A stretch of 24,019 nucleotides of DNA from a virus. The notes below the pieces were generated by a model. It worked only from the letters and a program-made list of their open reading frames with translations, was not told the DNA's origin and did no database searches. Each line of letters starts with the position of its first letter. Within the stretch, counting starts at the first letter, position 1. Made by a program: the position numbers and the translations under genes. Shown here piece by piece: positions 1-13,391 of this stretch. Where the stretch lies: positions 1 to 24,019 of IMG/VR virus record IMGVR_UViG_3300021373_001605. One strand, 5' to 3'.

Positions 1-897
1 TTTTTCTTGACCTTTTAATCCAGCCGCAGTACTAACTCTATCACCTATTTTATAAAAAGCATCTAATAAAACTTTTTGAACACCAGTAGAAGTTTCTTTT
101 AAAGATTCTTTAGCTGTCTTAGTAGTCTTACCATCAGGTAGAAGTTGATAAAGCATTTCAGCATTGTTCACTATATATTGCTGAGCAGAAATCACTTCTT
201 TCTGAGACAACCTAGTTGATGTCTTACCTTTAAAAGTTCCATCTTCATTATTAACTTTACCATCTTTAACTCCAAAGTCTTTACTTATGTTAGATAAGTC
301 AGGCGTTGTTTTGTAACTTTCTATAATTAAATTTGAATTTTGTATTCTATTATCTAAAAGCCTAATACTTACTTCTGGTTCTTGTAATACTGTAGTAACA
401 TCAAGTTTTCTTGTGGCTGGATCAATGTTTAATTCTGGTATAGAACTAGCATCTCCGCCAGTACTAAAATCTAAATTTTTCTCAAAAAACTCTTCAATAT
501 TCTCTATTTCTGCTTTTGGATCAAAAGCTCCTATTTTTTTAAGAATGTTAGGACCTTGTAGTGTAAATCCTAGGTTTAAATAAGCACCAACATCGTTTTT
601 GTTAGCGTCATATCTACCAGCGTATTCGTAAAGTTTTAATTGTAATTCAAAGGCAGCTTCTTTTTTTACATCTTTTGACAATTTAAATCCAGTAGTTGCT
701 TCATACTTATTTAACACGTAATGTATTAAATTTTTGTTATTGTCAACTATTTGATCTCTTTGTTTTCTATTTGGTTTACCATCTGGATTTTTAAGTATTT
801 CAGCTCTTAATTTCCTATTGTCTTCAACTATTTCTTTTGTAGTTTTCTTAACTACTGTGCCCTCTAAATCTAAAGAAGATCTAATTTCTTTTTCATG
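1..897 (-). CDS. Partial open frame continuing the 1228-residue virion protein in the -1 frame
   Basis: This frame opens just after a TAA at 898-900 and stays open to the window edge (299 codons, no stop), so the gene continues beyond the window. It has no ATG until 154-156 and no GTG until 715-717, yet the sequence from 897 onward looks like real protein, rich in K, E, N and hydrophobic residues like its neighbour. It overlaps the end of the preceding ORF by 25 bases (873-897), with a run of five A (minus strand, 889-893) inside the overlap. One extra A there would join the two frames as ...NMKKEIRSSLDLEG... I therefore read it as the rest of the upstream gene, reached by a -1 frameshift or hidden by an indel. 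A separate gene with a non-canonical start is less likely. No function is recognised, apart from a weak sigma-region-2-like stretch encoded at 529-741. Confidence 0.7.
870..897 (-). other. Candidate -1 frameshift or indel site
   Basis: The zero frame reads AAC ATG AAA AAG AAA TTA GAT CTT CTT TAG. The -1 frame is open from 897 leftward. Any switch must fall between the -1 stop at 898-900 and the TAG at 870-872. The AAA AAG pair is slippery-like, although the base before it is G, so it is not a full X XXY YYZ heptamer. A weak hairpin is possible just downstream (TAGATC with GATTTA, including one G-U pair). A lost A in the A5 run, by mutation or sequencing, would explain the break equally well. 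Confidence 0.6.
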
Positions 898-3800
898 TTA
901 GCTCTATCAGCTTTTTTATTAGCTTCTACAATTGACAAGTTATCTATGTCTATATCTGGAGTATCTCTTTTGTCAGTAAAACCCATAAGCTCAGATACTA
1001 GACTTTCAGCTCCTCCTTGTCCTCTAATTCCTTTCTTAGCTAATATACCTATATTTTCAACTACATCTTTAGCTGTTTTAGGTAATGGACTTTTTACTCC
1101 AGTTTGAATTAATATGTCTTTAATTTCTAACTTTATTTCATTTAAAATACTAGAAGCTAAAGCAGGATTTGTATAATAAGCTTCTGGACTACTTAAATAC
1201 TCACCCATAAAAGACAAATACTCTTCTGCTAGTAGTTTTCTACCTTCTGGAGTGTTTGTATTTATATTATATTTATCTATAATTCTTTGTTCTAATTCTT
1301 TACCATTAAACTCTCCAAACTGGTAATCATAAAATTGAGACATACCATCTTTTGCTAAATTTTCAAGCGCTGCTGGATTTTTCTTATAGTACTCTTTTTG
1401 AAGTAAATGAGTTAACTCATGTATTTCTTTTCCTGGCGTATAAAGATCCATGTCTATAGTTATGGTATTTGTGTTAGGATCAAACTCTGCAGTAGAATTG
1501 TTGTTTCTAAAATTGTTTTTTCTAAATCTAGCTCCTCTACCAACAACAAGATTTACACCTTTAAAATCTGGACTAAACTTCTGTATACCTTTTACCCAAG
1601 GATCTATATATCTTTTTGTAATATTGCTTTTAAAAACCTCAACTTCTTTATTGTATTCTTTTATAACTTCAGAATCTGTACTTTCAAATTTAGACTTAGA
1701 TGGAGGGGTTAACTCTTTATACGCTATTTCGTAGTTTATTAAATTCTGCAACTCATTAACGCCAGAAGTTAGGCTTTCTACTTTTTGTTTTTCCTTAAGG
1801 CTAAGATCACTTAAATTTCTTAACACTCCTGGAAGTTCTTTTTCATTTACTATTCTAGTCGGTCCTCTTCTAATATCTTCTATTCTTTTATTAAGCTTAT
1901 CTCTTAATTTTATTTTTCTATTTGTAGAAATAACATCGTTACCTTTTAACCCCATCATTCCAAAGCTAGAGAACGTACCTGTATTGACTAATATTCTTTC
2001 TTCAACAGCGTCTAAGTCTCCGTAAAGCTCTTTCATTGAAATAGAAAAATTCTTTTCACCTATTACACTTTTTGCTATAGCATCAACAAAACCAGCTGTT
2101 TCTGAAGATACAGCACCTAGTGGCCCAGCTGCTATTACTTTTTGAAATATAGGCTGAGCAGCTCTGAATTTTTTACCCCACTTTATATTTGCTCTTCCCA
2201 AAGCTCCAATACCATAAAAAGAAGCACCAGTACCAACATCAGCATCTAAAGCTATTTGCATTTGAACTTCTTCAACAACAGCTCCCATTACAAACTTTTT
2301 AATACCTTTAAGTCCGTTGTAGTATTTTTTCCAACCTAAAGCATTTAAAGCTTGGCCTCCACCAATTAGTAAAGGCATTTCTGGAATAAAACTCCCAATA
2401 CCTTGAGCTATCTGATTACTTACAGAGACTTTAACAGCTTCTTTTTGTTCTGGTGTTAGTTCTATTTCAACACCTGATAATGATTTTACCTCATAAGCAC
2501 TTGTTACTATAGCTGAGTTTATAGCAGCTATTCTGTCTTGGGGTGACATTCCTTTTGAATATACAATATTTTTAGCTTCTTTGTCATTATAGCCAAACTT
2601 TTCTAAAGTACTTACAAATGTAGAAGTTGCAAGAGTCTTTAAAAAACCATCTTTTTCTATAGCTGATATATCTACATTCCCAGCATACATACTCCAATAA
2701 GCATTGGCTAGAGTTTCTACTTCATCATATTCTTCGTTATATATTTTAATAGCTTCAACATCTTGCTTGCTAGCCATACCTAAAGCTTCGTCTATAAATC
2801 CTTCAAAATCTCTTTGATCTATTCCTAATTGTCTTAATTTTAGTAAAGATATTTCTACTTCACCATTTTTATCAATATTAATACCAGCAGTTCTAAGATT
2901 GTTTTTTAAAGTAGTAAAACCACCTTTAAAGCCTAAAGGAATTTTTAATTTTATTTTAGACTCACTTCCTTGCTTACGTAATGTCTGTAAATTTATTATT
3001 TCTTTATTGAATATATTGCCAATAGCTTCTCTTTGAGTGAGTAAAGGATTAGACTCTTGTTCTGATTTTATTGAATCTTCAATTCCAGATTGTGCGTCAT
3101 CAGCTATGTTGATCAACTTATCTATACTTGCTTCAGAAAAACCTCTATCGTTAAAAAAGTTTTTAGTTAATTCTCCGGCTGTAGTTTTAACTTCTACTGA
3201 ACCAAAGTCCTCACCAAACCTACCTGGTATAGTAGTTGTTGTTGTAGCATTCTCTTCTCTTTGAAGCTGTAATACTTGATAATTACTTTGCTTATTAAAC
3301 AACTGTAAATCTAAAGCTTTTAATTCATTCTTTTTAGCTTCTTCATCGTATTCAATTGTTAACTCTTTCTTATTAACTTGATCAATTTTATTTTGTAATA
3401 TGTTTATATCTTTTGATATATCACCTTGCTTAATACTTAGCTCTTGGTTTTTTAATTCTTGCTGTGTTAATTTAGAATTAAAATTACTTATTGTTTTACT
3501 TTTAAAATCTTCATCAACTTCTATACTTGAAAGACTTATGGATCTATTTTCGTCATACTCTTGCTCTATAAAAACTTTATTTTCTGCCATTAAGTTATTA
3601 TATATGTTGTCAAAAGAGCTTTTATATATACCTATCTCGGTATTAGTTCTTAACTCATCAATTAATTTTGCTTTAATTTGATCATGGTTTTCTGCGGTTA
3701 AAGTAAACTTTTCTTTGCCTGGTGTATTTTCATTACCAATACCATATTTCCAAGGGTTTCTAAAGGCATCTTTTTGTAATATATCTAACTCTGTTATTAA

Positions 3801-4556
3801 ACTAACAGCTTGTTCTTTGCTAGGATTTACAGCATCACCCGCGCCTTCAAAATCACCTTTTGGCTTCTCGCCAACTGGTCTTATTTTTGGTTGATCATAG
3901 TATGTGCCAATTTTTATTGAACTAACGCCATCTAGTCCAACCTCGCCAGTTGCTTTATATATTAAGTTAGACTCCTCGCTAGACTCAGGATTGTCGTTTA
4001 TAAAGTTAATAAAATTATTATATGCTTTTTTACTTTCACTTAGTGCGTCTTCATATATTAACCCTTCTTGACCAGTAGGTATACTAACATCTCCACTGCT
4101 TCTTCTGTTCTTAGTGTTATATATAGTTCCTAGCTTTATAGTTTTATTTGTTCCAGTCTCTTTATTTATAACAGTAAAACTATCACTACCTGGTTGAACT
4201 TGTTTAAAAACAAAATTAGGATACAGAGAATTTAGTTCAGGTACTATTTTCTCTTCTTCCTTTAACTTGAAGTCTTCAAAAGATATTTTAACGTCAACGT
4301 CTTCTATAGGTAATATTTTAATAATATCCTTGTGTCTTTTTAAATAATCATCTACACTTAAATTATCTACACCTGCAGCTTGCTGTATTTGATCAGCTGT
4401 AAAAGAAGCACCTTTGTATTTATATTTTACAGGTTCTTTTTCAATAATATCTTCTTCTGTCTCAACTTCAATATTGTTTTGTTCTTCTGAGTTAACAGAA
4501 ATATCTTCAACAACTTCTTCAGTTGGTGTATTTTCACTAAATACTTCGTCAATCAT
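870..4556 (-). CDS. Large internal/ejected virion protein with zinc-peptidase HExxH motif
   Basis: This 1228-residue ORF is the third of three probable cargo or ejection proteins after the tail genes. The N-terminal 50 residues are very acidic, followed by a long charged, helical region. Around residues 700-840 lies a Gly/Ala-rich hydrophobic stretch (e.g. GIGSFIPEMPLLIGGG) that could interact with membranes, as in ejected phage channel proteins. Near the C-terminus, residues 1046-1050 are HELTH, a zincin-type HExxH motif. A candidate third ligand, of the gluzincin type, is in AEEYLS (E1111/E1112). The ATG start follows an A/T-rich leader, 9 bases from the previous stop. The stop is TAG, unlike the TAA of all other long ORFs here, and an overlapping -1 frame continues to the window edge, so the C-terminus may not be the true one. 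The virion role is inferred from position; the peptidase motif is seen directly, but activity is unproven. Confidence 0.75.
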   Translation of the reverse strand: MIDEVFSENTPTEEVVEDISVNSEEQNNIEVETEEDIIEKEPVKYKYKGASFTADQIQQAAGVDNLSVDDYLKRHKDIIKILPIEDVDVKISFEDFKLKEEEKIVPELNSLYPNFVFKQVQPGSDSFTVINKETGTNKTIKLGTIYNTKNRRSSGDVSIPTGQEGLIYEDALSESKKAYNNFINFINDNPESSEESNLIYKATGEVGLDGVSSIKIGTYYDQPKIRPVGEKPKGDFEGAGDAVNPSKEQAVSLITELDILQKDAFRNPWKYGIGNENTPGKEKFTLTAENHDQIKAKLIDELRTNTEIGIYKSSFDNIYNNLMAENKVFIEQEYDENRSISLSSIEVDEDFKSKTISNFNSKLTQQELKNQELSIKQGDISKDINILQNKIDQVNKKELTIEYDEEAKKNELKALDLQLFNKQSNYQVLQLQREENATTTTTIPGRFGEDFGSVEVKTTAGELTKNFFNDRGFSEASIDKLINIADDAQSGIEDSIKSEQESNPLLTQREAIGNIFNKEIINLQTLRKQGSESKIKLKIPLGFKGGFTTLKNNLRTAGINIDKNGEVEISLLKLRQLGIDQRDFEGFIDEALGMASKQDVEAIKIYNEEYDEVETLANAYWSMYAGNVDISAIEKDGFLKTLATSTFVSTLEKFGYNDKEAKNIVYSKGMSPQDRIAAINSAIVTSAYEVKSLSGVEIELTPEQKEAVKVSVSNQIAQGIGSFIPEMPLLIGGGQALNALGWKKYYNGLKGIKKFVMGAVVEEVQMQIALDADVGTGASFYGIGALGRANIKWGKKFRAAQPIFQKVIAAGPLGAVSSETAGFVDAIAKSVIGEKNFSISMKELYGDLDAVEERILVNTGTFSSFGMMGLKGNDVISTNRKIKLRDKLNKRIEDIRRGPTRIVNEKELPGVLRNLSDLSLKEKQKVESLTSGVNELQNLINYEIAYKELTPPSKSKFESTDSEVIKEYNKEVEVFKSNITKRYIDPWVKGIQKFSPDFKGVNLVVGRGARFRKNNFRNNNSTAEFDPNTNTITIDMDLYTPGKEIHELTHLLQKEYYKKNPAALENLAKDGMSQFYDYQFGEFNGKELEQRIIDKYNINTNTPEGRKLLAEEYLSFMGEYLSSPEAYYTNPALASSILNEIKLEIKDILIQTGVKSPLPKTAKDVVENIGILAKKGIRGQGGAESLVSELMGFTDKRDTPDIDIDNLSIVEANKKADRANMKKKLDLL

Positions 4557-7228: not shown

Positions 7229-8962
7229 TTAAGATGATTGAACAAATTTACTACCTACAGACCATAATTCTTTTAAACCACCTACATCAGTATAATTATC
7301 TGTTGATATTTTTACAGTAGCAAAATACCCTTTTATTCCACTCATAGAAGCGCCGAATATAACTTCATTAGGTCTTGTTACGCTATTGTTTATTAAATTT
7401 GCTACGTATAAATTTTCTTTTCTATTAAAACCAGCTCTTTGTGGTTGTCCAGTTACGGTGTCAGTATATAAACCTTGATCGTAACTATATACAGTTGGAG
7501 TCGCATCTTGATATTGGTTACCATAAGTTACTGGGCTTGAACCAGGATTAGAATCTACTCTTTGAAAGTCAGATCTAAAAAAGTTTATTTGAAAACCATT
7601 ATCTCCTTCGTAGTTTACTGTTTGAAAAACCTTTTTTACTGATGGATTTGTATTTACAACAAAGATTATACTTGACGAGTTGTGGGAGTTATAGAAAACC
7701 CCTCTATTATTAATCACACTTTCATCGTGATGTTTCCATATTTTACTACTTTTAAAAGAGTAAAAAGTGTTTTTAGAGCTAAAAATCATATTTGGTCTAT
7801 AAGTATAGTAACTAGTCCAACCGTTTATAGATTCATCAAAAGACAAAGTAGAAGTGTTTTTTATTTGTAAAGGTTCTTCTAGAAAAGTAAAAGATTCATT
7901 AAAACTTGTGTCTGTCTTGGATTTTTGAAATGAAACAACATATTGCTTGTTTCTAGCGTCCCAAGCGCCTTCAATTTTATCCTTAACAAACCTGTAAAAA
8001 ACTATCTCTGTTTTTTGTGGATTTGAAACTGGAATTGTAATATTTTGAGACAGTGTAACTATATTAGTAGCTGTGTTTAAATCTATTATGTAAGACTGAG
8101 TTGTTAAACCTGATACTATAGCAGTCATACCTAATTCTAAATTAGACATATCTACTGATGTTACAGTTATAGTCGCTGTTGATCCAGGTGCTGTACTACT
8201 AGAAGTAACAATATTTAATCTTTTAAAACCTTCATCTATTAGTTCAGTTTGATCTCTAAAAAAGTCGTTCATTCCATATTGAGAAATTTCACTTAAACCA
8301 TCTCTTGATAATCTCATTACTTTACCTCTATATTTATCTACAAAATACCTTCTAAATCCAAACGTGGCAAAACTTTCTGGGTTTTTACTAATACCATAGC
8401 TACCTAGGTAAGGAACATTTTGACCTATAACTAAAGTGCTTGAACTTACAGGAGTACCAGTTCCTTCTGCTGAATAAATAGCATCTTTATCTATCAATGA
8501 TTTACTAACTTTACTTTCTTGAAATATAGTTAAATCATTATTTAAAGCAAACATTTTTTGTATTGACCCATTAGAAGGGTCTACAGAAACGCTTATATTT
8601 TCACCAACTGAAAAAACATTAGTTTCATTAAAACCTGTTTTAGAATTAAAAACACCAGAGTATATTATAGAGTTAGATCTATTTAATTGAACAGGATTAT
8701 CTTCGTTTATATAAGCTTTTACCCCAAAATCAACTGTAGTGTTATTGTATCCTCCTTTTATTCTAGCTTCTTCAACAAACCAATTTCTACCACCTGTTTC
8801 AGTTGAGTTTATATTAGCATTTATTGGAAAAGTGCCATTCTTGTATGGTGAATAAAAAATACCTGGCCAAACAGGATAAGCCACTTCGCCTGATCCAACT
8901 AATGATATAGTTTTTTTAGCTAAAAAAGAATTGTAATAACTTATAGGTATTGTTGCTGCCAT
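7229..8962 (-). CDS. Beta-rich tail nozzle/muzzle-type protein
   Basis: This 577-residue protein is rich in beta-strand-forming, Ser/Thr/Asn-rich sequence. Residues about 150-250 contain NDLTIFQESKVSKSLIDKDA, then ISKNPESFATFGFRRYFVDK and RGKVMRLSRDGLSEIS, a propeller-like signature I associate with the large tail nozzle/muzzle proteins of crAss-like and related marine phages. Residues about 252-324 form a separate beta-sandwich-like insertion (LELGMTAIVSG ... NIVTLSQNITI). Its ATG lies one base after the stop of the 1475-residue gene (TAA A ATG), so the two are probably translationally coupled and may be halves of what is one muzzle protein in relatives. No catalytic motif is seen. A tail-spike or receptor-binding role cannot be excluded. 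Confidence 0.7.
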   Translation of the reverse strand: MAATIPISYYNSFLAKKTISLVGSGEVAYPVWPGIFYSPYKNGTFPINANINSTETGGRNWFVEEARIKGGYNNTTVDFGVKAYINEDNPVQLNRSNSIIYSGVFNSKTGFNETNVFSVGENISVSVDPSNGSIQKMFALNNDLTIFQESKVSKSLIDKDAIYSAEGTGTPVSSSTLVIGQNVPYLGSYGISKNPESFATFGFRRYFVDKYRGKVMRLSRDGLSEISQYGMNDFFRDQTELIDEGFKRLNIVTSSSTAPGSTATITVTSVDMSNLELGMTAIVSGLTTQSYIIDLNTATNIVTLSQNITIPVSNPQKTEIVFYRFVKDKIEGAWDARNKQYVVSFQKSKTDTSFNESFTFLEEPLQIKNTSTLSFDESINGWTSYYTYRPNMIFSSKNTFYSFKSSKIWKHHDESVINNRGVFYNSHNSSSIIFVVNTNPSVKKVFQTVNYEGDNGFQINFFRSDFQRVDSNPGSSPVTYGNQYQDATPTVYSYDQGLYTDTVTGQPQRAGFNRKENLYVANLINNSVTRPNEVIFGASMSGIKGYFATVKISTDNYTDVGGLKELWSVGSKFVQSS

Positions 8963-8963
8963 T

Positions 8964-11900
8964 TTATGATATTATTAACAAATTAATAGGTACTTCTGTT
9001 GTAGCGTTACCAGCATCTGATATGTTTAATGTAAAGCCAATCCAAAACATACCGTAACTACCAGTATTAGCAACGTAAGACACTGGCTGGCCAGTGCTTG
9101 AATCATTTTCGGTAGTTTCTATTCTAAACAGTTTACCATGGCCTAATCTATCATTTAATATGATACCACAGTTTGACCAACCGGTAGAGTCTGGAATTAA
9201 GTTAATTTTAGTGCCATTTATACCGAATAAATCGTGGATATAGTTATCTATTATTTTTATTTTACCAGAATTATCTATTGAAACACAAGAACCAAGCAGA
9301 GTTGCTATTTCTCCTGTGGTATCCGTGAATCTACCTGTAGGATTAAATGGATCTGCTAGTATGTCACCTGTTGGAAAGTGCAAATCAGTTATGCTATAAC
9401 TCAAATCAAGTGACCATTTGTTAGTGTCTAATGTTCCGTTTAAAAACCCTGTATCACCATTTGCCGTTGCAAATATTGATAAGTTTTGGTTCTGTTCAAT
9501 AACATTCCAAGGTCCTGGTTCACCTGATATAGAATTGTAACCTATTAAACTATAGAATTTACTTTCTTCATACATTTGAATGCCAGGAGTAAGAAGCCTT
9601 GTTTTCAAAGGTAAATTACTAGTAGCGGCATTCCCAGTCGCAGCTGTACCCCTAAATTCAGTAGGGTAATTACTAAAAGATGTTGTATTTCCATTTCCAT
9701 ACAGTAAATTTCTCCACCAAAAAGTAGCGCTATACTTGTTTGTGTATCTAACGTTTCCTACGCCATCTACTGGGTAAGGTATTGGTGGGTTAGGCCCTGG
9801 GTTAGGATTTTCTTGTATTAACCAGTCGTTTAAGCCTCCAGAATACCAATAAGGAGAGTAAGAGGTTGTATCATATATATTAGGTAAACTTGTTGAGCCG
9901 GCTCTAATATTATTAGCTCTTAACTCCCAATTACTATTCTTATTATAAGGAACAACACCAGTAGACATAAAATTTGTGTAAGCATCGTTAACATAGTAGC
10001 TATTAGGAATATTAAAAGAGCTTCCCAGTGGAGGATTTATGATTATAGCATCGCTTTTAAGAAAATATAAAAAAGGCATAGAACCACCAATAAAACCACT
10101 AGCTTGTGTAACGTTTTGAATAGCTGATAAACCTTGCTTAGCGTTATTATCACCTTGATTAAGCCCTGTATAATCGTTTGGCTTTAGAGATAATCCAGTG
10201 CTTGTTTCTCTTGTATAATTTTTATAAGGTTCTATCGATACAGGTATAAAACTGTTTCCTAATTGAGAATCATTAATATTACCTTGTTGATTATATTGAG
10301 GTTGAATATTACTCATAGCGCCAGAAAAACTCAAAGTATTGTTAGTTATACCATTAGCTGTTGCTGATATATTGAAGTTCCAGTTTTGACCACTTTCAAA
10401 ATACACATATTCATTTGCATATATATTAAATCTACCAGTTTCTAAAGCTGGAGTTCCAGATACTTGAGGTACTAACGTAAATAAAGCTGATCTATCTACA
10501 TTACCAGTAAACGAAGAAGTGACTGAGGATATAGAGCATGTATTTGAAGAAGATAAAATAGCAATTCCGTTGGAATCCTTCAACTCTATAGTATATACTA
10601 CAGTGCCTCTTTCAGGTTGACTATCAGTTCCTGATCCTTTAAAATAAGGTTCTGTGTTTTCATATAACTCAAGATTGTCTTTAGTTATAGAAACCGGCCC
10701 TATAGTACCTGTTTCTATAGAGTTGTTTAGCTCAGAGATAAATCCAGACGTAGATGATTCATAATAAATATCTAAATTAGAAACAAAAGGATTTGTTTCG
10801 TAAACTCCTAAATTGCCAAAAGAATCATCAGTGGTATCAGTGTCTTTGGTTCCAATAAGCTTGTTGTTAACGACGTTAGCTATTGTTGCAGATTTTCCTT
10901 TGTATATTTTGTCAACGTTTACTTCTACGCCTTTTGTAGATAAAGATCCATTAGCTATATTTATATTACTAACAGCGTTATATATTATAGAACTAACTTC
11001 ATCATTTTTTCTCAACGGAGCTATAAAAAAGCTGGTTAATTCAGTATCAGCATCTACAGTTTTTTCAGTTGGATTAACTCTTGGAAATAAATTAACAGAA
11101 GATCTAAACTCTTTTTCTTCAGGACCAACATTACTTAGGTCTTTAGGAACTTTATTTATATTATCGTTTATTAATGGAAAATAACTATTAATAAAGTCAT
11201 AATTAGGAGAATCACTTCTATAAATACTAGGAGTATAAACATTGTAATACTCTTGTTCTTGTTGTTGAACTACTATTTTATAAGTATACCAACCTAAAGG
11301 ATTTGAAGAGGAGTACAGTCCCGGGTATCCACCTTGAGGTATTGTCTGTGGTATAGCCGTTTCTAAATATAAAAGCAATTGTTTTCCAGTGAAATCCAAA
11401 AGCCCATAACCAGCAGAAAAACTATTAGAATCAGAAAAGTTATTATATATAGTGGAAGATCCATAAAGCGCTCCTGAAACATCTTGAGCATCCTGAATAC
11501 TAGATAATATAACATCAGACTGCCTACCATATCTATCAGATAATACTATGCCAACTTGATACGTTCTGTTTTCTTTTAAAGAATGAGTTGGAAAAATTCT
11601 TTTATCTTGAGAAAGTGGAATATCTAGTTTTTTTGCAATTGCTAATTTATAGTCTAAACTTAATGGCGATGTGTGTTTGTCTATATAGTTACCATACATA
11701 ATTCTATTTCCAGAAACCTCTTGAGCCAAAGCTTTTATTGGTGCTTTATCATATACTCTTGTAATGTCTTTTTCAGGTAGTACTCTAATTGGTTTAGTAG
11801 ACTTATAGGAGTACTTTATGTAATCACTATTTCCATTTTCAGATAAACTATTTATAAAATTAATATCTAAAACGTCTATAACTTTAACTGATGTTTCGTT

Positions 11901-13391
11901 TGAAAATTTACAAAGTACTTCTACTTCTTTAATATTTAAAGATTTTAAAGTAAAATTCCAACTATCATAAGCATTTGTAGAAATATCTATAGACTCGAAA
12001 GGTGTTCTAATATACAAGTCTATACAATCTATGTTATTTTCAAAAAAATCAAGTACTGAACTTTTAGCTGCTGACTCTTCATTATTTAAAATGACACTAC
12101 CAAACTGTTTTGGTGTAAAAGCTATTTGAGTAAACGGAGCCATTAAAGAATATTCATTATCATCAAACTTGTACCTGTAGGAAAATCTAACAAATTTATC
12201 TTTTAAAAACTCTGAATCACCAGCAAAATTTATATCATAATCAGGGTTTGCTCTATATATTTTTATTCTACCATTAGCGTCTATATCGTCTGCAACAGGG
12301 AAACTGCCGGAAGCTGTTTGAATTTTTATAAATGCAGTTCCTGAAGTATCGTATTGCACTATCTTGTACCCTTGATCAACCACCATGACAGGTTCATTAG
12401 AACCCGAAGACGCTATATGTAATTCAGAATTAACATATAAAGAATCTACACCTTCTAAAACTGGATTAACTAAAGAAGAGTTTAATGTTACTTGTTCTAT
12501 TAAGAAAAGACCATCATTAACACCTGTGTTTTTAGCAGTTAAAACACCTTCGTATATTGTTGGTAAATAAGGATCACTACAGTTTTTCAAACCATATTCA
12601 GAAAAAGAAACAGATTGATTACTTGACCAAGATGCTGGTGAGCTTAAAGTAACTGAACCATCTATTGAGCTTACAGTGGTTAAGTATATATCTAAACCTA
12701 AACCTGTAGAAGATGTTAAACCAACAGGCATACCTACAAACAATCCTTCTGCAGCAGCGCTAGATCTAACATTTAGTACTAAAGATGTTGAATTGACACC
12801 AGATCCATCAGTTTTTATTTTAATTTCTTTGTAAAACTGAAGCGGAACTGAAGGGTAGAATTTAGCTACAGATATTTTATCTTCAGAGTCATAATACAAA
12901 ACATTTGAAGATGCTAAATTTATATTTATTTTTCTTGGTTGATTTCTATTATCTGTCCAAAATAAAAGATTTTCTATAATATTAACACCGTATACCCTAT
13001 GTGTTTTTGAAAAATTTAAAAAACTTCCTTGAACCAGTATAGTAGAAGAATTAGTATTAAAATCATATCTCACTATATAGTTAGAAGCAGCTGCTGGAGC
13101 TGGATTTGATACTTGGTCTAGGGATGAATCGTTGTAATTTGTAACGAATATAAACAATCTATCATTTACTTCCTCTACAAAATAGCCAATAATTTCTAAA
13201 CCTTGATCTGTTAATCCAAAATCTGATAACTGATTATTACCTAATATGTTTTGAAAAGTACCAACGCCATCACCTTCTGATCTACTTATAGTAACGTTTT
13301 GACCTACTCTATATTCACCTTGAGGAACCAACCTATCATCTAGGTCTTGATTCATTTTAGCTTTTATAAAATTATTTTTACTTTCTGCCAT
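8964..13391 (-). CDS. Giant tail protein, probable muzzle/nozzle (1475 residues)
   Basis: The largest complete gene in the window. The N-terminus carries KAKMNQDLDDRLVPQGEYR followed by VGQNVTISRSEGDGVGTFQN, a motif I recognise from large structural proteins of marine phages, then propeller-like blades (IGYFVEEVNDRLFIFVTNYN; FSKTHRVYGVNIIENLLFWT). Residues about 200-265 hold a GM-x-V ... VTLS beta-sandwich insertion like that in the next gene. Residues about 930-1030 look Ig-like (VYTIELKDSNGIAILSSSN), and residues about 1190-1206 are a Pro-rich linker (QENPNPGPNPPIPYP). The size and the position after ring and adaptor genes match the muzzle that closes the crAss-like tail. No enzyme motif is seen. 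The ATG is two bases after the previous stop. Confidence 0.75.
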   Translation of the reverse strand: MAESKNNFIKAKMNQDLDDRLVPQGEYRVGQNVTISRSEGDGVGTFQNILGNNQLSDFGLTDQGLEIIGYFVEEVNDRLFIFVTNYNDSSLDQVSNPAPAAASNYIVRYDFNTNSSTILVQGSFLNFSKTHRVYGVNIIENLLFWTDNRNQPRKININLASSNVLYYDSEDKISVAKFYPSVPLQFYKEIKIKTDGSGVNSTSLVLNVRSSAAAEGLFVGMPVGLTSSTGLGLDIYLTTVSSIDGSVTLSSPASWSSNQSVSFSEYGLKNCSDPYLPTIYEGVLTAKNTGVNDGLFLIEQVTLNSSLVNPVLEGVDSLYVNSELHIASSGSNEPVMVVDQGYKIVQYDTSGTAFIKIQTASGSFPVADDIDANGRIKIYRANPDYDINFAGDSEFLKDKFVRFSYRYKFDDNEYSLMAPFTQIAFTPKQFGSVILNNEESAAKSSVLDFFENNIDCIDLYIRTPFESIDISTNAYDSWNFTLKSLNIKEVEVLCKFSNETSVKVIDVLDINFINSLSENGNSDYIKYSYKSTKPIRVLPEKDITRVYDKAPIKALAQEVSGNRIMYGNYIDKHTSPLSLDYKLAIAKKLDIPLSQDKRIFPTHSLKENRTYQVGIVLSDRYGRQSDVILSSIQDAQDVSGALYGSSTIYNNFSDSNSFSAGYGLLDFTGKQLLLYLETAIPQTIPQGGYPGLYSSSNPLGWYTYKIVVQQQEQEYYNVYTPSIYRSDSPNYDFINSYFPLINDNINKVPKDLSNVGPEEKEFRSSVNLFPRVNPTEKTVDADTELTSFFIAPLRKNDEVSSIIYNAVSNINIANGSLSTKGVEVNVDKIYKGKSATIANVVNNKLIGTKDTDTTDDSFGNLGVYETNPFVSNLDIYYESSTSGFISELNNSIETGTIGPVSITKDNLELYENTEPYFKGSGTDSQPERGTVVYTIELKDSNGIAILSSSNTCSISSVTSSFTGNVDRSALFTLVPQVSGTPALETGRFNIYANEYVYFESGQNWNFNISATANGITNNTLSFSGAMSNIQPQYNQQGNINDSQLGNSFIPVSIEPYKNYTRETSTGLSLKPNDYTGLNQGDNNAKQGLSAIQNVTQASGFIGGSMPFLYFLKSDAIIINPPLGSSFNIPNSYYVNDAYTNFMSTGVVPYNKNSNWELRANNIRAGSTSLPNIYDTTSYSPYWYSGGLNDWLIQENPNPGPNPPIPYPVDGVGNVRYTNKYSATFWWRNLLYGNGNTTSFSNYPTEFRGTAATGNAATSNLPLKTRLLTPGIQMYEESKFYSLIGYNSISGEPGPWNVIEQNQNLSIFATANGDTGFLNGTLDTNKWSLDLSYSITDLHFPTGDILADPFNPTGRFTDTTGEIATLLGSCVSIDNSGKIKIIDNYIHDLFGINGTKINLIPDSTGWSNCGIILNDRLGHGKLFRIETTENDSSTGQPVSYVANTGSYGMFWIGFTLNISDAGNATTEVPINLLIIS

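Follow-up and report, generated by a model that had tools for sequence, protein, structure and literature searches.

Two overlapping frames at the end of a probable flavobacterial podovirus record very probably form one giant gene that is one base short

Introduction

In phages, programmed -1 ribosomal frameshifting is a feature of genes of the tail-assembly type. Shift-prone sequences are also met outside such genes: the tetramer A_AAG is described as prone to -1 shifts in E. coli, and in one reported instance it offset a -1 frameshift mutation close by (PMC5009743). Polyvalent proteins with zincin-like peptidase (MPTase) domains, a group that includes the virion RNA polymerase of phage N4, are described in PMC5512222.

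In this study, we have analyzed two overlapping frames on the minus strand of a viral record of 24,019 bases, the whole of which is referred to here as the window; the end of the record cuts off the second frame. Comparison with relatives makes us nearly certain that the two frames belong to one giant gene that lacks a single base in this record, the copy being broken or mis-sequenced rather than decoded through a programmed shift.

Results

The minus-strand block of the window comprises genes for a terminase (phrog_6681, E 1.1e-166), a portal (phrog_6547), a structural protein (phrog_13704) that is taken, judged by its place, as the capsid protein, and further structural genes. The terminase matches 87 phage records (Flavobacterium 68, Cellulophaga 15, Tenacibaculum 2, Maribacter 1, and one "Caudoviricetes sp."), so that the record is probably a podovirus of flavobacteria, the host assignment resting on these matches. 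The giant gene stands at the end of this flavophage-like structural operon. Elsewhere in the block, the product of a 577-residue gene (7232-8962) matches the C-terminal domain of the crAss-type muzzle (PF25729, E 2.2e-7, 31.7 bits against a cutoff of 27). The virion-protein profile phrog_14478, of 1474 positions, matches two adjoining genes within 7229-13391, at profile positions 2-180 in a gene of 1475 residues and 920-1095 in that of 577 residues. Each of the two has its own ATG, and the gene is thus cleanly split; in the relatives L006 and L009 described below, the corresponding genes have 1199 and 562 residues.

The first of the two overlapping frames, annotated mechanically as a 1228-codon ORF (870..4556), ends at a TAG (872-870), and the second, lying in the -1 frame, runs without a stop for 299 codons, from 897 to 1, sharing 25 bases with the first frame ahead of its stop. 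The first possible starts of the second frame come late: GTG at 717 (180 bases in), TTG at 681, and ATG at 156 (741 bases in). This anatomy had been set out in an earlier sequence-only reading, and it proved accurate when checked on the minus strand, as did the remark that the TAG at 870-872 is the only one among the long genes (12 of the 13 listed minus-strand genes end in TAA). The giant gene of one relative ends in TAG (L006) and that of another in TAA (L005), and TAG is therefore not foreign to the family.

Viral contigs from IMG/VR (the viral_contigs set) were searched with the 299-residue and 1228-residue products, yielding four loci apiece, out of 19 and 50 stretches that matched, respectively, and five contigs altogether (L005 to L009). 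A profile search of the same set (125 stretches) returned only these five contigs, and no relative was found in cellular genomes among 135 pattern-matching stretches. As L006 and L008 are identical but for 3 of 19,678 positions, the five contigs represent four distinct relatives, on which the comparison rests. In all five, a continuous frame spans the junction: the gene has 2995 codons in L006 and L008 and 3067 in L005, and at least 2483 and 2348 codons in L007 and L009, where it is cut by the contig ends. The relatives align with the 1228-codon ORF along residues 1-1225 (1-1220 in the case of L009) and then go on in the other frame, and when the proteins of L005, L006, L007, and L009 were searched against the window, the frame change fell inside the overlap. 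The last eight codons of the ORF (MKKKLDLL) are thus out of frame with respect to the relatives, and its TAG is premature. The sequence-only reading had weighed an indel in a gene of more than 1500 codons, and this is borne out, with the genes that can be followed to their ends being 2995 and 3067 codons long in one frame.

The continuation of the gene in the -1 frame (1..897) aligns in one frame to all relatives by tblastn, at 36% identity to L009, which diverges right at the junction, and at 78-84% to the others. Residues 2-299 of this frame find the relatives at E 6e-161, a value relative to the candidate stretches, and long open off-frames are rare in the window, since among the 26 same-strand off-frames of the 13 genes a single one stays open for at least 90 codons on end (184 codons). 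For these two reasons, the second frame is beyond chance. The mechanical ORF list contains a second gene from the GTG at 717 (715..717), where a gene caller would begin a separate ORF (717-1). The 60 codons ahead of this GTG are nevertheless open and align with the protein of the relatives, in which the same point lies inside one continuous frame; we therefore reject a second gene of its own, a reading to which we assign next to no probability.

The place of the missing base can be given from the four contigs that align closely here (L005, L006, L007, and L008, that is, three distinct relatives). L009 is also in one frame but diverges at this point, and it has no bearing on the exact place. 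Against the four contigs, the window shows a one-base gap at about 895-896, 2-3 bases upstream of the A5 run at 889..893. The run itself, within a GAAAAAG stretch that is identical in all four and is read there as GAA AAA GAA, is equally long in the window and in these contigs. Its equal length rules out a miscall of the homopolymer, which had been suspected as the site of the indel, and searching reads for A6 would examine the wrong spot. A pattern scan of viral_contigs that allowed both lengths, and that excluded the window's own record, found five sites, all of the longer form; four are those of relatives and the fifth is L011, which shows no similarity by tblastn.

The break in the giant gene is the sole frame change among the genes compared between the window and the ORFs of the relatives. 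This comparison covered the C-terminal 497 codons of the terminase, the portal, a 390-residue gene, about the first 96 codons of the capsid-like gene, portions of the gene of 1475 residues, and those of 577 and 644 residues, with rows from shadow ORFs in other frames set aside; outside it lay a gene of 240 residues, the interval between 13394 and 16467 with its genes, and the remainder of the capsid-like gene.

A programmed -1 ribosomal frameshift, by which a virion protein would be made as two forms at a fixed ratio, had been the other proposal of the sequence-only reading. The direction needed is indeed -1, and the overlap holds the A5 run (893-889) and an AAA AAG pair (893-888) that offers an in-frame A_AAG. 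Both elements are common throughout the 1228-codon ORF (A5 runs in 693 of 3660 stretches of 27 bases, in-frame A_AAG in 96 of 1220 stretches of nine codons), so their presence in the overlap is unremarkable. None of the 14 frame-0 positions from 912 down to 873, a range that takes in the overlap together with the preceding 15 bases, fits the canonical heptamer X_XXY_YYZ, as against 15 heptamers elsewhere in the same frame, and the overlap contains in frame only the tetramer. The RNA fold of 900-800 is ordinary, with a z of -0.54, and 59 of 200 shuffled sequences equal or exceed it in stability (pseudoknots were not modeled). Overlapping frames are found in none of the five relative contigs, all of which read straight through. 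Taken together, the continuous frame of the relatives, the heptamer scan, and the fold lead us to reject programmed frameshifting, for which we see virtually no remaining chance.

The part of the gene beyond the break is under constraint similar to that on the part before it. Values of dN/dS before and after the break are 0.22 and 0.20 against L006, the nearest relative, 0.25 and 0.32 against L007, and 0.36 and 0.39 against L005; those against L009 are 0.23 and 0.53, the second being weak, as dS is about 1.0 at 44% identity. The similar values on both sides indicate that the second frame is a constrained part of the gene, and that the break is either recent or not real.

A mosaic boundary, seen in several pairs as a sharp change of identity, adjoins the break (891..934). 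It was placed by a two-rate fit over the columns at window positions 1600-400 in 7 of 10 pairs. Identity rises from 0.73 to 0.97 at 897 (interval 926-891; intervals are given likewise below) between L007 and L005, from 0.73 to 0.92 at 904 (928-877) between L006 and L005, and from 0.72 to 0.85 at 926 (934-900) between the window and L005, and it falls from 0.82 to 0.49 at 898 (1061-897) between the window and L009. The change points of L009 with L006 and L007 both lie at 1059 (1064-893 and 1067-897, respectively), and that of L009 with L005, at 1065 (1070-1028), stops short of the break. Since the range was picked around the break and the fit always yields one point, a boundary near the break is what these values describe, and a closeness beyond chance is not implied; further identity changes occur along the giant gene. 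The boundary may lie beside the break by coincidence, or it may be a scar of exchange or reflect faulty assembly where strains share a stretch. Over the window's part of the gene (1-4556) and L005, L006, L007, and L009, the giant gene is mosaic within one frame, some pairs swinging from about 50% to 97-100% identity.

As for what the gene encodes, a zinc-peptidase-like HExxH motif, HELTH, lies upstream of the break at residues 1046-1050 (1407..1421). The motif is present at a like place in all four distinct relatives, as HELTH in L006, L007, and L009 and as HELAH in L005, and on the strength of this motif the giant protein may have zincin activity. In the relatives, the polynucleotide kinase profile phrog_415 matches the giant gene at 2124-2326 in L006 (E 1.6e-6) and at 2175-2353 in L005 (E 3.2e-6). 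This polynucleotide-kinase-like or HAD-phosphatase-like stretch, at 14370-14978 of L006, lies past the window end; the strings FDFDDT, ILTAR, and FADD within it are suggestive of a putative HAD phosphatase. No Pfam profile matched the giant protein above cutoff, a phmmer search of the PDB with the L006 giant returned nothing at E up to 1, and the two structure predictions (mean pLDDT 45 and 37) were too poor for fold comparison. An N4-type virion RNA polymerase was considered and set aside, the few [DN]xxGR strings present including none convincing as the polymerase motif (DxxGR).

Six cultured or named kin among the 87 terminase matches were examined. Five of them, with a related terminase, have a similar annotated order, in which one large ORF follows terminase, portal, and other structural genes: elemoF_6-3D (gp18, 3694 aa), MW202828 (UOF82488, 3859 aa), phi13:2 (gp127, 1990 aa), phi38:1 (gp101, 1691 aa), and Panino (CDS0069, 1829 aa), where a small opposite-strand gene intervenes. 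Gundel, the sixth, has instead a structural gene of 2482 codons ahead of the terminase; the arrangement in phi13:2, Panino, and Gundel is taken from annotation alone. In the annotation, gp18, gp127, and gp101 are structural or virion structural proteins, and the other two are named otherwise. The gene order and this annotation of cultured kin suggest that the giant product is likely a virion protein, and they would be compatible with its being packaged in the virion and injected.

Homology between the giant gene and the giants of cultured kin was not detected by tblastn, phmmer, or hhalign, the latter two having been applied singly to the giants named below. The 1228-residue and 299-residue products gave no tblastn match in the "phages" set, where the C-terminal 1795 residues of the L006 protein gave one weak match, to the unannotated uncultured phage LR756500 (24.6%, E 3e-3). 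By phmmer, there was no match to the giants of elemoF or MW202828 at E up to 10, and hhalign to the phi38:1 giant and to parts of that of MW202828 gave E values of 0.18-0.35. In the portions available to us of the literature on elemo, Cellulophaga podoviruses, and flavophage proteomics, PMC8776804 included, we found nothing on the giant gene.

Discussion

All together, these results allow us to propose that the two frames are one gene. In the relatives, it is a single frame of about 3000 codons, placed after the structural genes of a podovirus-like flavophage. Its product is most likely a very large virion protein, polyvalent or of the ejection type, in which a zincin-like motif precedes the break and other modules follow it. 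The record is short of a single base at about 895-896, immediately ahead of the A5 run; as written, translation passes through eight wrong codons to the stop at 872-870, and the second frame lacks its own start.

As to the origin of the gap, we lean towards an error of sequencing or assembly confined to the record. A real mutant, perhaps carrying an exchange scar at the mosaic boundary, is a less favored possibility; PMC6487183, together with a sequencing method that the record does not state, leaves room for it.

If the deletion were real, unprogrammed -1 slippage at the A_AAG beside the break might restore part of the long protein. The direction of the slip fits, and the behavior of this tetramer in E. 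coli, with the reported case of compensation (PMC5009743), speaks for the idea. The relatives nevertheless read the stretch in another phase (GAA AAA GAA), the deletion alone being what puts A_AAG in frame, and the proposal is a conjecture that presumes the deletion in the phage itself; we consider it very unlikely. Just as doubtful, to our mind, is its extension, in which a real deletion through inexact exchange at the module boundary, followed by leaky slippage at A_AAG, would give a two-form virion protein in this lineage alone.

The reading of one giant gene that is one base short bears mainly on annotation. Both ORFs should be handled as a single broken gene, and the A5 run does not belong in catalogues of phage frameshift sites. 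The intact gene of about 3000 codons, with stretches exchanged in one frame between relatives, is a reasonable subject in its own right, although of a known kind.

With the programmed -1 frameshift genes of phages, those of the tail-assembly type, the present locus shares overlapping frames and the -1 direction; it differs from them in that the arrangement is not conserved in relatives and comes with neither a canonical heptamer nor a notable fold. The giants of the kin are single frames, whereas the copy in the window is broken, and those of elemoF and MW202828 also carry HExxH. In comparison with the polyvalent proteins (PMC5512222), the giant protein differs in having no Pfam profile above cutoff and no convincing polymerase motif. 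It has in common with them a very large size for a phage protein, the HExxH motif, and a mosaic build, and polyvalent proteins are the closest described kind to the giant protein.
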